Notes: generated by a model from the letters alone, not told the origin. A stretch of DNA of 42,640 nucleotides from a virus (IMGVR_UViG_3300023297_000022:1-42640); one strand, 5' to 3'; counted from the stretch's first letter, positions 9,279 through 37,042 are shown. Translations and numbers: made by a program.

Positions 9279-9460
9279 TGGGTGGTGACAAGATAATATT
9301 AGTTGATGATATAGAAGGATCATGTTTAATTGTTGGGTGTTATCATGACAGAAACCTATTTTTTACAGATAAGATATACAATCATAAATATTTAGAAGGT
9401 TTTATGAAGCTTTTAGATATATCACCAGAAGAATTCTTTGAGAAACTTGACAATAAATGA
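9278..9460 (+). CDS. Hypothetical 60-aa protein
   Basis: MGGDKIILVDDIEGSCLIVG... short alpha/beta protein ending 'ISPEEFFEKLDNK'. Coupled on both sides (TGATG with the 27-aa gene, ATGA with terL). Function unknown. Confidence 0.5.
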   Translation: MGGDKIILVDDIEGSCLIVGCYHDRNLFFTDKIYNHKYLEGFMKLLDISPEEFFEKLDNK

Positions 9461-10908
9461 ATAAAAAAGAAAAACTAGAAGAGATTGCATTGCTTGAGGC
9501 AAAGGAGATACAAAGGAAACAGAATCTTTGTCTTTACTGGTTTAATAAGTTCTATGATTGGCAGCTTGAATTTTGTGCCTCTACACTGTTAAAGTTTGAA
9601 TCATGCCTAATGGCCGCCAATCAAATAGGTAAAACTTTAGTGGGTACAGTTATTGATGCTTTTCATTTAATGGGTAACTATCCTGACAATTGGCCTGGTC
9701 ATAGATTTAAACATGCTCCCCTCGTGTGGTGTCTGGGTGTATCAACTGAAAAGACTAGAGATTTACTTCAGACCGCATTGTTTGGTAAGTATGACAAGCT
9801 AAATGGTTTTAAGGGTGGATTGATACCAAAAGACTTAATTGTTGATTGGGAGTCTATCTCTGGCGTGTCTAATGCTATGCGTACAGTAAGGGTTAGACAT
9901 AAGTCTGGTGGTATATCGAGAGTTCAATTCTGGTCATATTCTCAAGGGCAAGATGTATTAATGGGTGATAAGGTAGATCATTGCCATATAGATGAAGATC
10001 CTAAAGATCCTAAAATTAGACCACAGTTAGTAACAAGAACAATTAATGGTGATAAAGGCAGGGGTGGTAAAATAATATATACCTTTACACCTGAACATGG
10101 CCGGACGGACACGGTTATTAAGTTTATGTATGATCCCTCTCCCTCTCAATTCTTTCTGCAGAAGGGCTGGGTTGATGCCCCACACATGACCCAAGACAAA
10201 CAAGACAGGCTAATGGAACAATACGATGCCAGCCAAATAGACATGAGATCAAAGGGTGATCCGCTACTTGGTGAAGGTCGTATCTTTGATGTATCTGATG
10301 ACGTTATAGAGTGTGAACCAATAGAGATACCTGATTTCTGGAAGACCATTGTTTGTTGTGACTTCGGTGGTATGGGAAGTGGTGCGCATCCACAGGCTTT
10401 CGTTAAACTTTCAATAGACCTTGACAATGATATAATATATGTAACTAATTCATGGAAAGCTGTTGGTGTTAGTGCCAATGATGCTTGGGGTGCTGTCAAG
10501 TCGTGGGTTGGTAATTACCCCGTTGCTTGGCCTCATGATGGATTACACATGGAAAAGGCCCGTGACGATTCTATCCAGCTTAAACAACACTATGTAAACG
10601 CTGGTTTTAATATGCTTTGGGAACATGCCACATGGCTTGAAGGTGGTATATCTGTTGAAGCTGGTATAATGCAGATAAACACAAGATCAAGACAGGGTAG
10701 ATTTAGAGTATTCAAAGGACAACACGACCTAATGGATGAACGAAGACAATATCACAGGGTGAATGGTAAGATTATAAAGGTTCGTGATGACTTACTCGAT
10801 GCAATAAGAGCTGGTATTATGATGCTGAGATATGCTATATATAACGGTGAAGGGAATGAAAAAGAACCAGATATAATGCCCAGACCAATTGAACCAATGG
10901 GAAGATAA
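9457..10908 (+). CDS. terL: Terminase large subunit (ATPase/nuclease)
   Basis: 483 aa. Walker A-type 'AANQIGKT' (residues 53-60), Walker B 'HCHIDEDP' with D179/E180, coupling motif region 'IIYTFTP' (207-211), and a C-terminal RNase H-like nuclease beginning 'CCDFGG' (D302). Closest in type to the P22 gp2/Terminase_6 group: headful packaging motor that translocates DNA into the portal. In P22 the portal gene follows directly; here a 2.3-kb insertion separates them. Confidence 0.93.
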   Translation: MNKKEKLEEIALLEAKEIQRKQNLCLYWFNKFYDWQLEFCASTLLKFESCLMAANQIGKTLVGTVIDAFHLMGNYPDNWPGHRFKHAPLVWCLGVSTEKTRDLLQTALFGKYDKLNGFKGGLIPKDLIVDWESISGVSNAMRTVRVRHKSGGISRVQFWSYSQGQDVLMGDKVDHCHIDEDPKDPKIRPQLVTRTINGDKGRGGKIIYTFTPEHGRTDTVIKFMYDPSPSQFFLQKGWVDAPHMTQDKQDRLMEQYDASQIDMRSKGDPLLGEGRIFDVSDDVIECEPIEIPDFWKTIVCCDFGGMGSGAHPQAFVKLSIDLDNDIIYVTNSWKAVGVSANDAWGAVKSWVGNYPVAWPHDGLHMEKARDDSIQLKQHYVNAGFNMLWEHATWLEGGISVEAGIMQINTRSRQGRFRVFKGQHDLMDERRQYHRVNGKIIKVRDDLLDAIRAGIMMLRYAIYNGEGNEKEPDIMPRPIEPMGR

Positions 10909-10940
10909 GGGGTTGTAATTATTATCTTATATGCTATTAT

Positions 10941-10991
10941 TAACGTATAAACTGAGGTGCTGCTTAAGCAGTCGGCTCAAGTGAGAGGTTA
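10941..10991 (-). repeat. attC-like site A (minus orientation)
   Basis: Minus strand: TAAC, 5-nt spacer CTCTC, ACT[T]GAG, CTGC-TTAA-GCAG apical stem, CTC-AGT, 6-nt spacer TTATAC, GTTA. The unpaired base after the third stem pair and the 5/6-nt central spacers match the single-strand attC design (R''-L''...L'-R') used by integron integrases. Confidence 0.7.
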
Positions 10992-11008
10992 GCACAAGGA
11001 GGTTGATT

Positions 11009-11179
11009 GTGAAGTACATATTTATTGGTTCTTCGTGCTTTGTTTACACAATAAAAAGTATTGTAAAAGATCTAGCTATATTGCGTCTCTATAAAAATCC
11101 AGACGATTTTAGTAGAGGTATAAAACTGAAAGATGTTGAGATTGATGGTTGGAGTACCTATTTATCTTCAGCCATATAG
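11009..11179 (+). CDS. Cassette protein, 56 aa (GTG start)
   Basis: MKYIFIGSSCFVYTIKSIVK... ending 'DGWSTYLSSAI'. A strong AAGGAGG directly follows the GTTAGCA end of attC-like site A, the position expected of a cassette's first gene. It converges on, and overlaps by 22 bases, the DUF3892 gene. Function unknown. Confidence 0.45.
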   Translation: MKYIFIGSSCFVYTIKSIVKDLAILRLYKNPDDFSRGIKLKDVEIDGWSTYLSSAI

Positions 11180-11388
11180 TCAAGATTGTTTTTTTCTTTA
11201 CTGTCTGGTCTTGTGCGTAGATGACTTTTTGCATTTTTAGGATGAACCGCAACGGCATCTATTTGGCCTTTTTCAGCCATCTCGATAGCTTTTTTTAAGG
11301 GAGTGAATGTTGTGTTGCCTTCTATTTTTACTTTAGTGATGTTACCTTTTGGATCTGCTTTTGCATCAATAATCTTTTTTTTAGGCAT
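11158..11388 (-). CDS. DUF3892-like cassette protein
   Basis: 76 aa. 'DPKGNITKVKIEG', 'KKAIEMAEKGQIDAVAVHP', 'LRTRPDSKEKNNLD' follow the DUF3892 pattern (small beta-alpha domain ending in xLRSxPDxxxxNNLxxL). On the minus strand inside an otherwise plus-strand region, preceded by AAAGGAG, and bounded by attC-like sites A and B. Family function not established. Confidence 0.7.
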   Translation of the reverse strand: MPKKKIIDAKADPKGNITKVKIEGNTTFTPLKKAIEMAEKGQIDAVAVHPKNAKSHLRTRPDSKEKNNLDYMAEDK

Positions 11389-11423
11389 CGCATGTCTCCT
11401 TTTGTTTGAGGTTTAATTATGTA

Positions 11424-11478
11424 TACAACAAATCACTTGTGCGGAACTGCTCAATTATCTACTCAGTTTAAACGTTAG
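11424..11478 (+). repeat. attC-like site B (plus orientation, degenerate stem)
   Basis: Plus strand: CAAC, 5-nt spacer AAATC, ACT[T]GTG, ..., CTC-AGT, 6-nt spacer TTAAAC, GTTAGGT. GTTAGGT fits the R' consensus GTTRRRY exactly. Similar to site A but in the opposite orientation; stem pairing is poorer than in the other sites. The stop codon of the neighbouring minus-strand gene lies in its spacer. Confidence 0.55.
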
Positions 11479-11863
11479 GTTCAAATATGATAGAGATTAT
11501 TGATTTTATATACGGCCATATTTGGATTGTTAATGTTGTAAGTGCAATAGCACTTGCAATTATGGCTATAATATTAGCCTTAGATGCTCGTGAATCTGCC
11601 TTAGATGCTAAAACGTTGGCCTCTAATGCTATAGAATTGGAACGCTTGGCCGTTTCATTGGCTTCTCGTGCTAAATTAATTGACTCTTTAGAATTAAGGT
11701 TATTTGATAATGAAGATTTATTGTCACACCATGTTTTTACTACTTGATAAAATTCATCGGATGGTTGTCCGTAGCTGCCGTCAGCCAGATAAGACAGTGT
11801 CTTTTCAAGACCGTTTTCCTCTAGGCATTAAGCTATTTCGTATGGGGACTTATCAAGTGTCAT
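11468..11863 (-). pseudogene. Cassette gene for coiled-coil/membrane protein with in-frame TAA
   Basis: The minus strand reads MTLDKSPYEIA, then TAA (11828-11830), then an open frame of 119 residues (CLEENGLEKTLSYLADGS...). The latter ends in a heptad-like coil (AREANETAKRSNS..ALEANVLASKAD) followed by a hydrophobic helix (IIAIIASAIALTTLTIQIW). The part after the stop has no good start codon or ribosome site, so it looks like a nonsense-interrupted gene. Its final codons run into attC-like site B, as cassette genes usually do. The plus-strand frame at 11487-11747 is its antisense. Confidence 0.55.
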
Positions 11864-11891
11864 TATTATTTGTTATTATTTTATGTAGTGC

Positions 11892-11946
11892 TAACGTGTA
11901 AGTTCACTGGTGCCAAGCTTTGGCATCCATGTGTAACGCTTTGTTA
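11892..11946 (-). repeat. attC-like site C (minus orientation)
   Basis: Minus strand: TAAC, AAAGC (5 nt), GTT[A]CAC..TGG, apical TGCCAA-AGC-TTGGCA, CCA-GTG-AAC, TTACAC (6 nt), GTTA. Three bases of the first arm are extrahelical. Almost identical to site E, differing only in the apical loop. Confidence 0.8.
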
Positions 11947-11997
11947 TGTGATTTTAAGGTTAAAATTATGCAAAAAGCAACATGGTCATATATAAGA

Positions 11998-12213
11998 TCA
12001 CTTAAACCGTATAATGATCCTGTCAAAGACTACCTTCATAGCGTTAAAGTGTTCTTTCGTATAAGAAGGATCAGCTTGAGACTTTTTTATCATTTCAAAA
12101 TACTGGTCTTCAAAGACAAACTTAAAGGGTTCATCCTTAAATTCTTTGATCGCAAGTGCAACTAGGAAACATTCATGTACCATTGATGCTGCTATTAATT
12201 CAACATTTGTCAT
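11998..12213 (-). CDS. Cassette protein, 71 aa
   Basis: MTNVELIAASMVHECFLVALAIKEFK..., mainly helical and with no recognised family. Start at 12213 because AAAGGAG lies 7 bases upstream on the minus strand; longer in-frame starts lack a ribosome site. The stop lies 52 bases before attC-like site C, typical of a gene cassette. Function unknown. Confidence 0.6.
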   Translation of the reverse strand: MTNVELIAASMVHECFLVALAIKEFKDEPFKFVFEDQYFEMIKKSQADPSYTKEHFNAMKVVFDRIIIRFK

Positions 12214-12269
12214 GTATTTGCTCCTTTGTGAGTTATTTAAGTTAATGTTCTTTGAAATGTAAATAGAAG

Positions 12270-12450
12270 AGGAAGGCGCCATATAACCATTCAAGGATGG
12301 TTGTATACAATCCCAAAAATGAAGGATTGCCGTTGTTGAATGTTAAAATTCTTTCGATAGGTGCCGTACTCCTATTAAAGTTCTTGTTGTGAAGAACACG
12401 AATTTTTGACCCAGCTTAGTACAGTGACTTTCTCTAACAAGCGCCTTCCT
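12270..12450 (-). repeat. 10-bp long-range inverted repeat with hairpins in cassette C-D
   Basis: AGGAAGGCGC at 12270-12279 and its complement at 12441-12450 enclose small hairpins (12286-12303, AACCAT/ATGGTT; and CAATCC/GGATTG near 12310-12330). The segment between the 34-aa and 71-aa frames has no other gene and appears to be structured RNA. Confidence 0.4.
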
Positions 12451-12479
12451 ATCAGTATGTAAGTTATAAACTTACGCAT
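12375..12479 (-). CDS. Small cassette peptide, 34 aa
   Basis: MRKFITYILIGRRLLEKVTV... with an excellent AAGGAGG site. The start is enclosed by CCTATC/GATAGG and GTAAGTT/AACTTAC hairpins, and a CTCCTT element upstream could pair with the ribosome site. Basic and partly hydrophobic; it could be a membrane-active peptide. It may be a leader for the 71-aa gene. Confidence 0.4.
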   Translation of the reverse strand: MRKFITYILIGRRLLEKVTVLSWVKNSCSSQQEL

Positions 12480-12570
12480 GATTGGCCTCCTTTCCGTAGA
12501 TAGGGTTTATCATTTACTGATAAGAAGGAGAAACGCCTCCCTCTTTTTATTTACATTTTATTTTTAAACA

Positions 12571-12623
12571 TAACGTGTGAGGTCACCGTGTTGCCGAAGG
12601 CAATCAGGTGTAGCGATTTGTTA
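12571..12623 (-). repeat. attC-like site D (minus orientation)
   Basis: Minus strand: TAAC, AAATC (5 nt), GCT[A]CACC, apical TTGCC-TTC-GGCAA, GGTGACC, TCACAC (6 nt), GTTA. Same spacer lengths and extrahelical base position as sites A, C and E although the primary sequence differs, so it is the architecture that is conserved. Confidence 0.75.
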
Positions 12624-12642
12624 ACTGGGGTTTTATTAAATA

Positions 12643-12673
12643 TGATGGGCCGAGCCATAGACCCAGCCCACCA
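12643..12673 (-). terminator. Hairpin after the 30-aa peptide gene
   Basis: TGGTGGGC/GCCCATCA pairs fully on the minus strand (one G-U), but has an A-C mismatch on the plus strand, so the minus transcript is the likely user. It begins 3 bases after the stop at 12677. The U tract after it is weak. Confidence 0.45.
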
Positions 12674-12676
12674 TTT

Positions 12677-12769
12677 TTAAGTGAGTAGCATCCATAGATA
12701 AATCACAAGTTGTACAGCTTGCAATATTCTATCTATAGGAATTCTCACTGTCAGTTTAAGTTCAAACAT
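12677..12769 (-). CDS. 30-aa hydrophobic peptide, type I toxin-like
   Basis: Minus strand: MFELKLTVRIPIDRILQ followed by a hydrophobic helix (AVQLVIYLWMLLT). AGGA lies ahead of the ATG. The coding RNA folds on itself (GTGAG...CTCAC outer stem, 12681-12749). Small size, one amphipathic membrane helix and a long structured leader are the general hallmarks of type I toxins such as TisB; no sequence similarity is claimed. Lies in the cassette between sites D and E. Confidence 0.45.
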   Translation of the reverse strand: MFELKLTVRIPIDRILQAVQLVIYLWMLLT

Positions 12770-12806
12770 AAGATTTTCCTTATAATTGAACGATTACTGA
12801 CGCGCC

Positions 12807-13012
12807 AGCAACCGAGTTAATGGTTGTTGGGTGATAGTTACGGAAAAGAAATGCAAATGTACCCAATTTGATAAAGCAGTTGGTCTACTGCTCATTTGCA
12901 ATTTTCTTTTTCTTGGCTATCATCAACAGGGTAGCTATCCCTGATGGGAAATTTCACTGGCCCCTGGCCAAGTACCTTTTACCGTGGGTAACGTAAAGAC
13001 CAGTGTAGTTTC
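12807..13012 (-). ncRNA. Highly structured leader RNA or ncRNA in cassette D-E
   Basis: Four consecutive hairpins: 12807-12830 (CAGCAACC/GGTTGTTG), 12831-12921 (a long imperfect stem GATAG...CTATC containing TGCAAATG/CATTTGCA and an inner AGCAG/CTGCT), about 12927-12943 (CAGGG/CCCTG), and about 12948-13012 (GGAAA..CACTGG/CCAGTG..TTTCC). No gene occupies this stretch on either strand. It precedes the 30-aa peptide on the minus strand and could regulate it or be an independent RNA. Confidence 0.45.
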
Positions 13013-13039
13013 CAAGTTCTTTAGTTTTATTGTTACAGT

Positions 13040-13096
13040 TAACGTGTAAGTTCACTGGTGCCAAGCTTTATGGCATCCATGTGTAACGCTTTGTTA
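13040..13096 (-). repeat. attC-like site E (minus orientation)
   Basis: Near copy of site C with two extra bases in the apical loop. On the minus strand it begins ATCTAAC, an exact RYYYAAC (R'') match, followed by AAAGC and the GTT[A]CAC arm and ends TTACAC-GTTA. It forms the portal-side boundary of the array. Confidence 0.8.
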
Positions 13097-13102
13097 GATA
13101 AT

Positions 13103-13132
13103 AGACTGTCATTAATTTGGCGGTCTTTTTTT
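13103..13132 (+). terminator. Rho-independent terminator before the portal gene
   Basis: AGACTG (13103-13108) pairs with CGGTCT (13121-13126), followed by a run of seven T. It ends plus-strand transcription entering from the cassette array, just before the portal promoter. Confidence 0.65.
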
Positions 13133-13185: not shown

Positions 13186-13213
13186 TTGACAGTATCCCAA
13201 AAAGGAGTATAAT
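13186..13213 (+). promoter_or_regulatory. Strong sigma70-type late promoter (TTGACA-16-TATAAT)
   Basis: Consensus -35 (13186-13191) and -10 (13208-13213) with 16-bp spacing. Predicted start of transcription near 13220, a short leader, then the portal gene. It restores expression of the head genes downstream of the array. Confidence 0.8.
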
Positions 13214-13246
13214 GGTATAAGAAATACATTCAATATGGAGTTTCTT

Positions 13247-15421
13247 ATGCCTTTGACCCACAAAGAAATCACGAAGAAACACGACAAAGCCTACCTATAC
13301 CCCAAAGAAACAAGAGAGAAATCATCAGAAGATAGTTATTTTTACAACGTATCCCAATGGACTGATAAAATGAAAGATCGGTGTCAGCTTGGGTATCGTG
13401 GTGAGTTTGATCTTGTCAGTAAGTCCGTGAAGGGTGTTCAGGGTGATTTAACGTCTAATCCTGTACAGAATGACTTTGAACCCGTTGACGAAGATAGAGA
13501 CGATGCAGCAGAGCTGTTAGATGGAATTTACAGAGCAGACAGTCACAACAATACATCAATCGAAGCCTTTAATAATGCTGAACAGGAAATGATTGTATGC
13601 GGATTCGGTGCGTGGGAGGTTTACACTAAATACGAGTCTGTTCGTGATGACAGTAAAAATCAAGTGGTAAGACGAAGACCAATTTACGAAGCAAACAATA
13701 ATCTATTCTTTGATCCAAGCGCAAGACTTCTTGATAAATCAGACGCTTTTTACTCCTCGCATTTAACAGGATACACAGAAGACGGGTTTATATCGGTCTA
13801 TAAAGAGTTAACAGATGAGGATCTAACAGATGAAGAGATAAAGGCCCTTAATGTTTCATCTTTTGCATATCCTGAACAGTCTTTTAATTGGGTAACCTCA
13901 GACAAGACGTTCTATCTTTCTACTTTCTATCATAAAGAATTAGTAAAGACCAAAATTCTCAACATGATAAACCCTGTTGGCGAAGAAACTACCATGTTTG
14001 AGTCTGATCTTAAAGACGTTATGGATGACATGATTGACGAAGGATGGATAATAGAAGGTGATAAAACCATTAATCGTTGGGAAGTCAGAAAGTATATTGT
14101 ATCCGGGAGAGAGATATTAAATGGTGAGATTGGTAAAGATGGCGAACGTGAAGGCGTTATAATAGCCGGTGAACACATTCCAGTAGTTCCAATATATGGA
14201 GAACATGCAATTGTTGGTGGTGAAGAAACTTGGAAAGGTGTAGTCAGAAGTAAAATAGATGGGCAGATTCTTCGTAATTTCAATTTTTCTTATATGGCTG
14301 ATATTGTAAGCAGATCACCAAGAGCAAAACCCGTACTTACAAAAGAACAGATTAAGGGTTATGAACATATGTATAATGTGAGCGGTGTTGATAATAATTA
14401 CCCTTATGTTTTGATGAATAGCAAGGGCGCAGATGGTAGACCTCTATTACAAGGCCCAATTGCACAAATGCCAGATTCTCCCCTCCCACCAGCATTAGCA
14501 GCAAGTATTGACCTATCACGGCAAGCGGTGGAAGAGGGGGCGAATCCTGGTACAACACAAGACATCGCAGATGTTGACCTATCAACTAAATCTATTCTAG
14601 CACTTCAGGCAAGACTTGACCTACAGAGCGTGACATATCAGGAACACCGGAAACATGGGAAACGCAGAGATGGTGAAATCTGCGCTTCAATGTATGCTGA
14701 GACATATGACGTACCTCGTCAAGCTAATATTGAACTGAAAAATGGAACACGTAAAAAAGTCAAGATGATGGATCAGATTATCGATGCTGAGTCAGGGGAG
14801 CTTGTAACATTAAACGATATTTACAACCTAGAATTCAAAGTATATTCATCAATTTCAGCAAGTTATTCTACACAGAAAGACCAGACACTTGACCGGATAG
14901 AGAAGTTAATGGCTGGTATTAACCCAGCAGATCCAAAATATGACATGCTTTTACTTCAGTATATGTCTTTGATGGACGGTGTAGATTTTGATGATACTAG
15001 AGACTGGGTCAGAAACGAACAGTTGGTGAAGGGATATCGAAAACCTGAAGATGAAGAAGAAGAAGCCAAACTTGAAGAGGCTCAGAACCAACAGAAAGAA
15101 CCTTCAGCGGAAATGCTTATGGGTCTGGGTGAGAAAATGAAGGGTGAAGCCGCACTATTGGAGCAGAAACGCAAGGGCGTTGAAATGCAGTTAGAGTTCC
15201 AGAACAAAGACACAGCAAATAAGGTCGATAGTTTTGAGGCACAGACTAAACGAATGGAAGCACAGATTAAAGCATTTTTAGCAGATGCAAAGATACAAAT
15301 GGACAATATGAATACGTTCAGTAAGGACATGGAAACCAGAACTAAAATGAGTGAATTTGTTGAGCCCATTACTGGAATGTCAGATGAAGCAATCAAGGCT
15401 GAACTATACGGACAAGCATAA
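13247..15421 (+). CDS. Portal protein, P22 gp1-like
   Basis: 724 aa from ATG 13247, chosen because GGAG at 13237-13240 is ideally spaced; an in-frame ATG at 13235 has no ribosome site. Length equals that of P22 portal (about 725 aa). N-terminal 'YFYNVSQWTDKMKDRCQ', core 'WYF'-poor wing and stem region, and a long helical C-terminus (about residues 620-710, EEAKLEEAQNQ...) corresponding to the P22 barrel. Forms the dodecameric DNA channel at the capsid vertex and docks TerL and gp4. Confidence 0.88.
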   Translation: MPLTHKEITKKHDKAYLYPKETREKSSEDSYFYNVSQWTDKMKDRCQLGYRGEFDLVSKSVKGVQGDLTSNPVQNDFEPVDEDRDDAAELLDGIYRADSHNNTSIEAFNNAEQEMIVCGFGAWEVYTKYESVRDDSKNQVVRRRPIYEANNNLFFDPSARLLDKSDAFYSSHLTGYTEDGFISVYKELTDEDLTDEEIKALNVSSFAYPEQSFNWVTSDKTFYLSTFYHKELVKTKILNMINPVGEETTMFESDLKDVMDDMIDEGWIIEGDKTINRWEVRKYIVSGREILNGEIGKDGEREGVIIAGEHIPVVPIYGEHAIVGGEETWKGVVRSKIDGQILRNFNFSYMADIVSRSPRAKPVLTKEQIKGYEHMYNVSGVDNNYPYVLMNSKGADGRPLLQGPIAQMPDSPLPPALAASIDLSRQAVEEGANPGTTQDIADVDLSTKSILALQARLDLQSVTYQEHRKHGKRRDGEICASMYAETYDVPRQANIELKNGTRKKVKMMDQIIDAESGELVTLNDIYNLEFKVYSSISASYSTQKDQTLDRIEKLMAGINPADPKYDMLLLQYMSLMDGVDFDDTRDWVRNEQLVKGYRKPEDEEEEAKLEEAQNQQKEPSAEMLMGLGEKMKGEAALLEQKRKGVEMQLEFQNKDTANKVDSFEAQTKRMEAQIKAFLADAKIQMDNMNTFSKDMETRTKMSEFVEPITGMSDEAIKAELYGQA

Positions 15422-17909: not shown

Positions 17910-18281
17910 ATGAAAGCAGGATTTTTAGAATTTAGACACCATGTAAAAACAACCGACTATCCTTCGGGTGCAGCATTGACTCAGGTTTTAGCCGTTACAA
18001 CTGCAACCGTATTACTTACACATCCACTCGTTTTACTTGATTCTTCAGCTGGTGCAGTAACTACTTTAACACTTCCAAATGGTGAAGAAGGACAGGTTTT
18101 AGTTCTTCAGTCAATAGACGCAGCCGACATGACATTGACACCCACAACCGCTACTGGTTGGGCAACTTGTGTTCTTATTGATATCGGAGATTCAGTGTCT
18201 TTACTGTATGTTGATGATACCGTTGGCTGGATTATCCTTGGAACTGCTGGTGTTTCAGCACCTCCAGTTATCTCAGTATAG
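17910..18281 (+). CDS. Small head/decoration-type protein, paralogue 1 (123 aa)
   Basis: Beta-rich, Thr/Val-rich, no charged core; ends 'LYVDDTVGWIILGTAGVSAPPVISV'. Same length as, and clearly paralogous to, the next gene. Position after coat suggests a capsid decoration or head-fibre anchoring protein. Strong AAAGGGG site. Confidence 0.6.
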   Translation: MKAGFLEFRHHVKTTDYPSGAALTQVLAVTTATVLLTHPLVLLDSSAGAVTTLTLPNGEEGQVLVLQSIDAADMTLTPTTATGWATCVLIDIGDSVSLLYVDDTVGWIILGTAGVSAPPVISV

Positions 18282-18293
18282 AAAGGGAATTAT

Positions 18294-18665
18294 ATGAAGA
18301 CAACAGGTATAGAATTTTTACACCACACTTTAACAACAACTTACACAAATACCTTAATTAAAGTCGTGGCGGCAACAGCAACAGATGGATTGACAATACC
18401 CATTACGCATCCAATGGTCACAAAAACAAACGCTGGGGCAGAAGCTAATAGCGTAGCAAACGGTGTTCCTGGTCAGATTCTGAATATATACATGACAACA
18501 GCAGTGGGGGCTTCTTCAATTACTCCTGCCACAATGACCGGATTCGCAACAATCGTACTTGATACGGCTGGTGACCAGTGTACTTTGTATTATGTTGACG
18601 ATACCGTTGGTTGGATAATTCTTGGATTGACAGGTGTAACGGGTCAGCCAGTTATAACAGTATAA
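18294..18665 (+). CDS. Small head/decoration-type protein, paralogue 2 (123 aa)
   Basis: Shares with its neighbour the 'EFxHH' start, 'G.PGQIL' / 'GEEGQVL' middle, and 'YYVDDTVGWIILG' near the C-terminus, with equal length. A tandem duplication that has diverged strongly in the middle, as expected of exposed virion surface. Confidence 0.6.
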   Translation: MKTTGIEFLHHTLTTTYTNTLIKVVAATATDGLTIPITHPMVTKTNAGAEANSVANGVPGQILNIYMTTAVGASSITPATMTGFATIVLDTAGDQCTLYYVDDTVGWIILGLTGVTGQPVITV

Positions 18666-36640: not shown

Positions 36641-37042
36641 TTATAAACCTAAACTTTTAGCGGATTCTTTTGAAATGTAAACAATCTTTCCGTTCGCCTC
36701 GACACACACCATATTATTTGTAAATATCTGTTCGTAAACATACCGTAATGAACAACCATCCAGTTTTACAGCCTCCATACAAATAGCCTCGGTCTGTTCG
36801 GAAACATACCGTAATGAATAACCATTCTGTTTTACAGCCGCCATACAAATAGCCTCGGTCTGTTCTGAAACATACTGTAATGAATCACCATTCTGTTTTA
36901 CAGCCGCCATACAAATAGCCTCGGTCTGTTCGGAAACATACCGTAATGAATAACCATCCTGTTTTACAGCCTCCATTGCCTCTCTTCCGCACAATGTTTT
37001 TTTGAGATTTAAACTTTTCCATTTTTCATAATACTTTTTCAT
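36641..37042 (-). CDS. DUF4116-like repeat protein, 133 aa
   Basis: Four tandem 22-aa units of the form AVKQ(N/D)GxSLxYVSEQTEAICM, the first near residue 25, with the last degenerate. This 'AVKxNGxxLxYVxEQT' pattern is that of DUF4116-type helical repeats found in phages and large viruses. Probably a small solenoid for protein binding. The DNA repeats are 66 bp and nearly identical, indicating recent expansion. Confidence 0.75.
   Translation of the reverse strand: MKKYYEKWKSLNLKKTLCGREAMEAVKQDGYSLRYVSEQTEAICMAAVKQNGDSLQYVSEQTEAICMAAVKQNGYSLRYVSEQTEAICMEAVKLDGCSLRYVYEQIFTNNMVCVEANGKIVYISKESAKSLGL
36720..36985 (-). repeat. 66-bp tandem repeats in the DUF4116-like gene
   Basis: The marker GCCTCGGTC recurs at 36786, 36852 and 36918, exactly 66 bp apart, with few mismatches; outer copies are degenerate. 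Confidence 0.85.

Follow-up and report, generated by a model that had tools for sequence, protein, structure and literature searches.

A probable integrase-less attC array between the terL and portal genes of a P22-like virus

Clusters of attC sites lacking integron integrases (CALINs), which by the default of IntegronFinder 2.0 contain at least two close attC sites (PMC9024848), have been known in phages since Qi et al. 2023 described them in 17 phages, some of them virulent, and reported IntI1 recombination for five of the six phage attC sites assayed (PMC9892861). In Tetrasphaera phage TJE1, Pseudoalteromonas phage H101/PH101 and Polaribacter phage P12002L the attC clusters without IntI are accompanied by small genes of unknown function, and divergent site directions have been reported there too (PMC9892861). 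In bacteria, the closest described systems are the sedentary chromosomal integrons of Gammaproteobacteria and the attG insertions of Loot et al. 2024, the latter being, as far as they are described in PMC11389934 and PMC12901181, cassettes placed outside the integron platform and joined to host DNA at GTT.

The stretch of DNA analyzed here (the window) comes from a virus and is 42,640 bp long. In it, the block at 10938-13099, flanked by the terminase large subunit gene (terL) on its left and the portal gene on its right, is very probably a CALIN inserted between these two genes; its three complete cassettes, behind a truncated site, S5, were probably captured with the help of a host IntI. The block resembles the published phage CALINs in the respects named above, and differs from them in its setting, namely a P22-like podovirus and the terL–portal gap, in having an insertion-free relative and matching cassette ends, in carrying two largely non-coding cassettes and no methyltransferase cargo, and in being known from sequence alone. 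It shares with the sedentary chromosomal integrons of Gammaproteobacteria the common attC anatomy and the complementarity of cassette ends, and the closest attC sequence found lies in such a genome with IntI, whereas the block has no intI, few sites and heterogeneous attC types. The likeness to attG insertions, within what the two citing papers describe, lies in the off-platform position and the GTT junction, but here the cassettes form an array in a phage and no empty site could be delimited. The first-pass annotation had regarded an attC array as not established in phages, which the published cases contradict; what is new is a well-supported further case, which places a P22-like podovirus among the few phages known to carry CALINs and adds evidence beyond attC prediction in the form of complementary cassette ends and insert-free relatives.

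Position of the block in the phage genome

The features of the block and its flanks are collected in Table 1. Downstream of the portal gene are encoded a P22-type coat protein, a tail accessory factor, a stabilisation protein and a tailspike whose head-binding domain is of the P22 type, and the closest named relatives of the portal protein are those of Pseudomonas phage AH02 (46%) and Vibrio phage 1.275.O (44%). In both of these phages terL and the portal gene overlap by one base, in agreement with the earlier remark that the usual terL–portal adjacency is broken in this virus. A relative, L003, shows approximately 80-85% nucleotide identity over terL and the portal gene with the synteny kept, lacks the block and contains no attC site detectable by the covariance model R2 described below. 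The absence of the block from L003, together with the overlapping genes of the named relatives, therefore identifies the block as an insertion. Homology to L003 restarts near 13122 and the left junction falls somewhere in ~10935-10956, the exact insertion points being unreadable there, since an accessory gene belonging to L003 itself, a 74-aa ORF, occupies the place of the block. Two other metagenome records carry the block at 100% identity, L004 (5.4 kb) in whole and L005 with its right end, which makes an assembly error unlikely. The relatives found were identical copies of the block and the one without it, none carrying different cassettes, while BLAST searches of plasmids and phages with the block as query returned no relatives and an 18-nt attC pattern searched across IMG/VR matched only contigs belonging to the window and a single chance sequence.

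A TIGR02249 profile search of the 42.6-kb record, which may be incomplete, returned no integron integrase, so that an intI adjoining the array, as in a complete integron, is absent from the record, as had been proposed; five attC model matches fall inside 2.2 kb. The reading as a CALIN between terL and the portal gene of a P22-like virus is thus borne out by the attC model, the cassette-end test, the lack of IntI and the block-free relatives. The insertion may be tolerated at this place because a terminator and a strong promoter belonging to the portal gene lie between it and that gene.

The terL–portal gap looks like a site for accessory genes in the phage group of the window and L003. The terL of L003 (L003:316-2616) contains an intein in the Walker A motif (GKC...HHNT), inside which the opposite strand carries an ORF for an HNH homing endonuclease with an HTH (L003:647-1210); the terL of the window has no intein. 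Elsewhere in the window, the adjacent 123-aa proteins encoded at 17910-18281 and 18294-18665 look like tandem paralogues, and the protein encoded at 36641-37042 is made up of DUF4116 repeats.

Table 1. Coordinates of the attC sites, cassettes, reading frames and flanking features in the window
Feature	Position	Strand	Remarks
Terminase large subunit (terL), left neighbour	9457..10908	+	Pfam Terminase_6N/6C
S1, final site of array	10938..10994	-	R2 16.2 bits, E 0.11; window's fifth best
Cassette C3, 951 bp	10944..11894	-	Boxes GTTAGCA/TGCTAAC
DUF3892 ORF of C3, 76 aa, canonical orientation	11158..11388	-	Pfam PF13031, E 4e-12
S2, inverted degraded attC within C3	11423..11480	+	R2 19.1 bits, E 0.02
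86-aa membrane-type ORF in C3, against cassette orientation	11487..11747	+	Possible ORF
S3	11889..11949	-	R2 33.8 bits, E 7e-6
Cassette C2, 679 bp	11895..12573	-	Boxes GTTATGT/ACATAAC
71-aa ORF of C2, canonical orientation	11998..12213	-	Internal ATG of 98-aa ORF
34-aa ORF in C2 element	12479-12375	-	With Shine-Dalgarno
S4	12568..12626	-	R2 21.5 bits, E 0.006 (filters off); R1 15.8 bits
Cassette C1, 469 bp	12574..13042	-	Bounded by the G^TT points of S5 and S4; boxes GTTAACT/AGTTAAC
30-aa ORF in C1 element	12769-12677	-	With Shine-Dalgarno
S5, first site of array, truncated anchor	13037..13099	-	R2 30.1 bits, E 5e-5
Intrinsic terminator, array–portal gap	13103..13126	+	L003 homology restarts at its 3' end
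Sigma-70 promoter before portal gene	13186..13213	+	12/12 consensus; present in relative L003 too
P22-like portal protein, right neighbour	13235..15421	+	Pfam P22_portal, E 2e-101

Identification of the attC sites and of the cassette ends

The first-pass annotation had named five sites, at 10941-10991, 11424-11478, 11892-11946, 12571-12623 and 13040-13096, all of which do lie where it placed them, and had suggested that an attC covariance model be run over them. Two such models were built from a source of 80 bacterial integron loci gathered with an IntI alignment, to which the In2/aadA1 region of R100, the Shewanella phage M16-3 integron and the Vibrio phage p16 array were added. The first, R1, was made from the arms of 50 genuine-array sites with an extrahelical base on the L'' side, and at E<=10 it gave only four matches in the window, every one of them a site of the first-pass annotation. 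The second, R2, was made from 105 sites in 36 loci found by R1, nearly all of them array-oriented and nearly all from bacterial integrons, with two sites of TJE1 being included. When R2 was run with filters off over the whole 42.6 kb, this independently trained model matched all five sites, which were its five best matches, the next elsewhere scoring 12.6 bits. Published CALINs were recovered by R2 in the controls (four sites in H101 and three in TJE1), H101 being the clean control because two TJE1 sites sat in the training set; in 258 kb of control sequence at E<=10, the only match beyond the published CALINs was the copy of S5 in an identical contig. The two published sites of P12002L were missed by the covariance models, whose sensitivity is therefore limited. 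An independent scorer gave 16.6 for S5 and 15.1 for S3; the best scores of shuffled windows had their median at 8.8 and their 95th percentile at 13.5. This scorer and the two covariance models took the place of an earlier scorer, which demanded a single bulge and strict pairing and had missed the sites.

The shared attC architecture ascribed to all five sites is complete in two of them. S3 and S5 resemble the attC of aadA1, with an L''-side extrahelical base placed after the third pair, 5- and 6-nt spacers and full stems (3L3L3 in S5), and they agree fully with the attC description (RYYYAAC/GTTRRRY ends, spacers and L''/L' stem). S1 and S4, the latter with a single mismatch in its outer stem, agree imperfectly, and S2, in which the L stem is weak, poorly. 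S1 and S2 are individually weak matches, part of the array being degraded. Nearly all of the genuine arrays carry the extrahelical base in the top strand's L'' arm; in S1, S3, S4 and S5 this arm stands to the right on the plus strand, so these four sites are assigned to the minus strand and S2 alone to the plus strand. This reverses the orientation initially given to the cassettes, which run in minus-strand order C1, C2, C3 behind S5.

The cassette ends provide a second test, which is strand-symmetric, the strand call being taken from the bulge polarity. In an array, R'' of a given site pairs with R' of the preceding site, both being derived from one circular cassette. Consistent with that, the R'' and R' boxes of neighbouring sites in eight genuine arrays match at all four variable bases in 40/46 cases, versus 9/46 for the two boxes within the same site. 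In the block, the boxes of neighbours are fully complementary in all three cases, with S4–S5, S3–S4 and S1–S3 each matching at all four variable bases, whereas the boxes within a site match at one or two of the four. The chance of three such full matches is ~6e-8 with equal bases and ~0.008 at the own-site rate, which is the conservative baseline. Judged from the sequence, this complementarity is the mark that circular cassettes would leave on being joined in at G^TT. At the two ends of the array, S5 lacks its own partner R box (GTTAGAT) upstream, and the R' box of S1, GTTAATA, adjoins phage DNA downstream of terL.

S2 stands apart. It forms with S1 a 32-nt inverted repeat that is 78% complementary, being an inverted homologue of that site, and its R boxes, ATACAAC and GTTAGGT, mismatch those of S1 and S3. 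It is therefore a relic within C3 and no cassette boundary, so that four of the five sites, and not all of them as previously supposed, delimit cassettes.

Contents of the cassettes

C3 contains the DUF3892 ORF, the inverted S2 and an 86-aa ORF on the opposite strand. The DUF3892 ORF is preceded by a AAAAGGAG ribosome-binding site; searches for this family gave no match among phage records, two among plasmids and two weak ones in 50 integron-bearing genomes. The 86-aa ORF begins right after the R' box of S2, has no family match and shows no detectable relationship to the 74-aa ORF found at the same place in L003. In C2, the 71-aa ORF has an AAAGGAG ribosome-binding site, ends ~50 nt before S3 and had no match in PHROG, PADLOC or Pfam. 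The 71-aa ORF of C2 and the DUF3892 ORF of C3 would fit the pattern of a gene in cassette orientation close to its own attC, but C1 has only a 30-aa ORF and C3 an oppositely oriented ORF as well; the plus-strand ORFs with stops near or in the sites, formerly taken for the cassette genes, are replaced by these minus-strand ones. The suggestion of anti-defence genes likewise found no counterpart, the cassette cargo containing no known defence or counter-defence family (PADLOC). The only IMG/VR relatives of the cassette proteins were identical copies.

The remainder of C1 and C2 is dominated by two foldable elements, one in C1 (12627-13036), mostly non-coding and with a fold z of -7.4 versus shuffles, and one in C2 (12235-12558), largely non-coding, with a z of -7.3 and bounded by ~30-nt terminal inverted repeats. 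Windows in 12601-12950 are the strongest fold outliers of the genome. Fold stability is alike on both strands and G-U pairs are few, and DNA-level palindromes are therefore as likely as RNA. At its gathering scores Rfam matched nothing in the window, at E<=5 it gave no credible match in the block, and no relatives of either element were found. That C1 and C2 could carry large structured RNAs moved by a host integrase, or type I toxin-like mRNAs with tiny hydrophobic peptides and hidden ribosome-binding sites, is an unlikely proposal; if true, structured-RNA or tiny-peptide cassettes would be integron cargo of a sort undescribed in phages. The 38 nt at 12526-12563 are 92% identical to an unannotated, terminator-like stretch of the Salmonella phages YSP2 and GJL01 (E 5e-4).

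Route of acquisition and bacterial source

In the model favored here, each cassette would have entered as a single-stranded circle and been joined at the G^TT of the attC bottom strand, for which IntI has a preference in its single-stranded form (PMC8946536), by the integron integrase of a bacterial host that was probably a gammaproteobacterium. Capture would have taken place during phage DNA replication, and re-excision would be possible; the first piece may have been inserted at a secondary (attG-like) site or arrived via illegitimate recombination. S3 and S5, the better sites, can presumably still recombine in infected cells that express IntI.

An alternative, possible if somewhat doubtful, is that the phage took up part of a chromosomal integron of its host through illegitimate or homologous recombination, the block now being non-recombining passenger DNA. 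This reading competes with integrase-mediated capture on the route and on present activity, not on the identity of the sites. It would account for the missing upstream box of S5, the inverted relic S2 and the imperfect S1 and S4, as well as for the fact that every copy of the block found is identical, and such routes have been proposed for other phages by Qi et al. (PMC9892861); the R boxes of the three cassettes are, however, still perfectly matched, and the full stems of S3 and S5 have been kept. Far less probable is a transposon- or MITE-like insertion with the repeats as its ends, as could be imagined from the terminal inverted repeats of the C2 element and from the near-identity of two of the sites, since that element covers only part of C2, the S3/S5 repeats are direct and have attC anatomy, and the block contains no transposase. 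Chance attC-like hairpins, that is, terminators or regulatory stem-loops, are barely conceivable: the sites do fold into hairpins on either strand, but the terminator scan found no terminator at them, they head the ranking of a bacterial attC model, their neighbouring R boxes are complementary and relatives lack the block, and this candidate was rejected on the model ranking, the cassette-end test and the scan.

As to the source of the captured cassettes, a 16-nt pattern from S3–S5 had three matches in 369 gammaproteobacterial genomes, which is about chance level, and the attC pattern found nothing in 395 genomes of the phylum to which a Desulfobacteraceae MAG belongs. The closest site is one of these three gammaproteobacterial matches (contigs L104/L105), an attC that scores 26.9 bits with R2 and has 39/46 arm bases in common with S3, as compared with at most 28 for any of the 105 genuine sites. 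There is overlap between this attC and the 3'-terminal part of a cytosine methyltransferase gene that adjoins a HinP1I-like endonuclease gene, and the same genome has an IntI match of 435.8 bits and further attC sites. Such an S3-like site points to a gammaproteobacterial source of the array, as far as sequence likeness can indicate it. Through the link between the attC type and a gammaproteobacterial restriction-modification (R-M) cassette, the idea that phages exchange cassettes with host integrons, in which defence genes are found too, becomes directly testable.

The genomes examined for the source also yielded three observations of their own. The HinP1I-like R-M pair (L105:9179-11004) ends in a lone attC between mgtE-like and MutT/ThiE-like genes, and this lone attC, lying outside any array, is likely an attG-type insertion. 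In the same genome (L107:685-3884), an integron integrase is adjoined by a complete EcoRI-type R-M cassette. Finally, a Pseudomonadales MAG (L026:456-7320) has ten near-identical consecutive attC sites upstream of intI.
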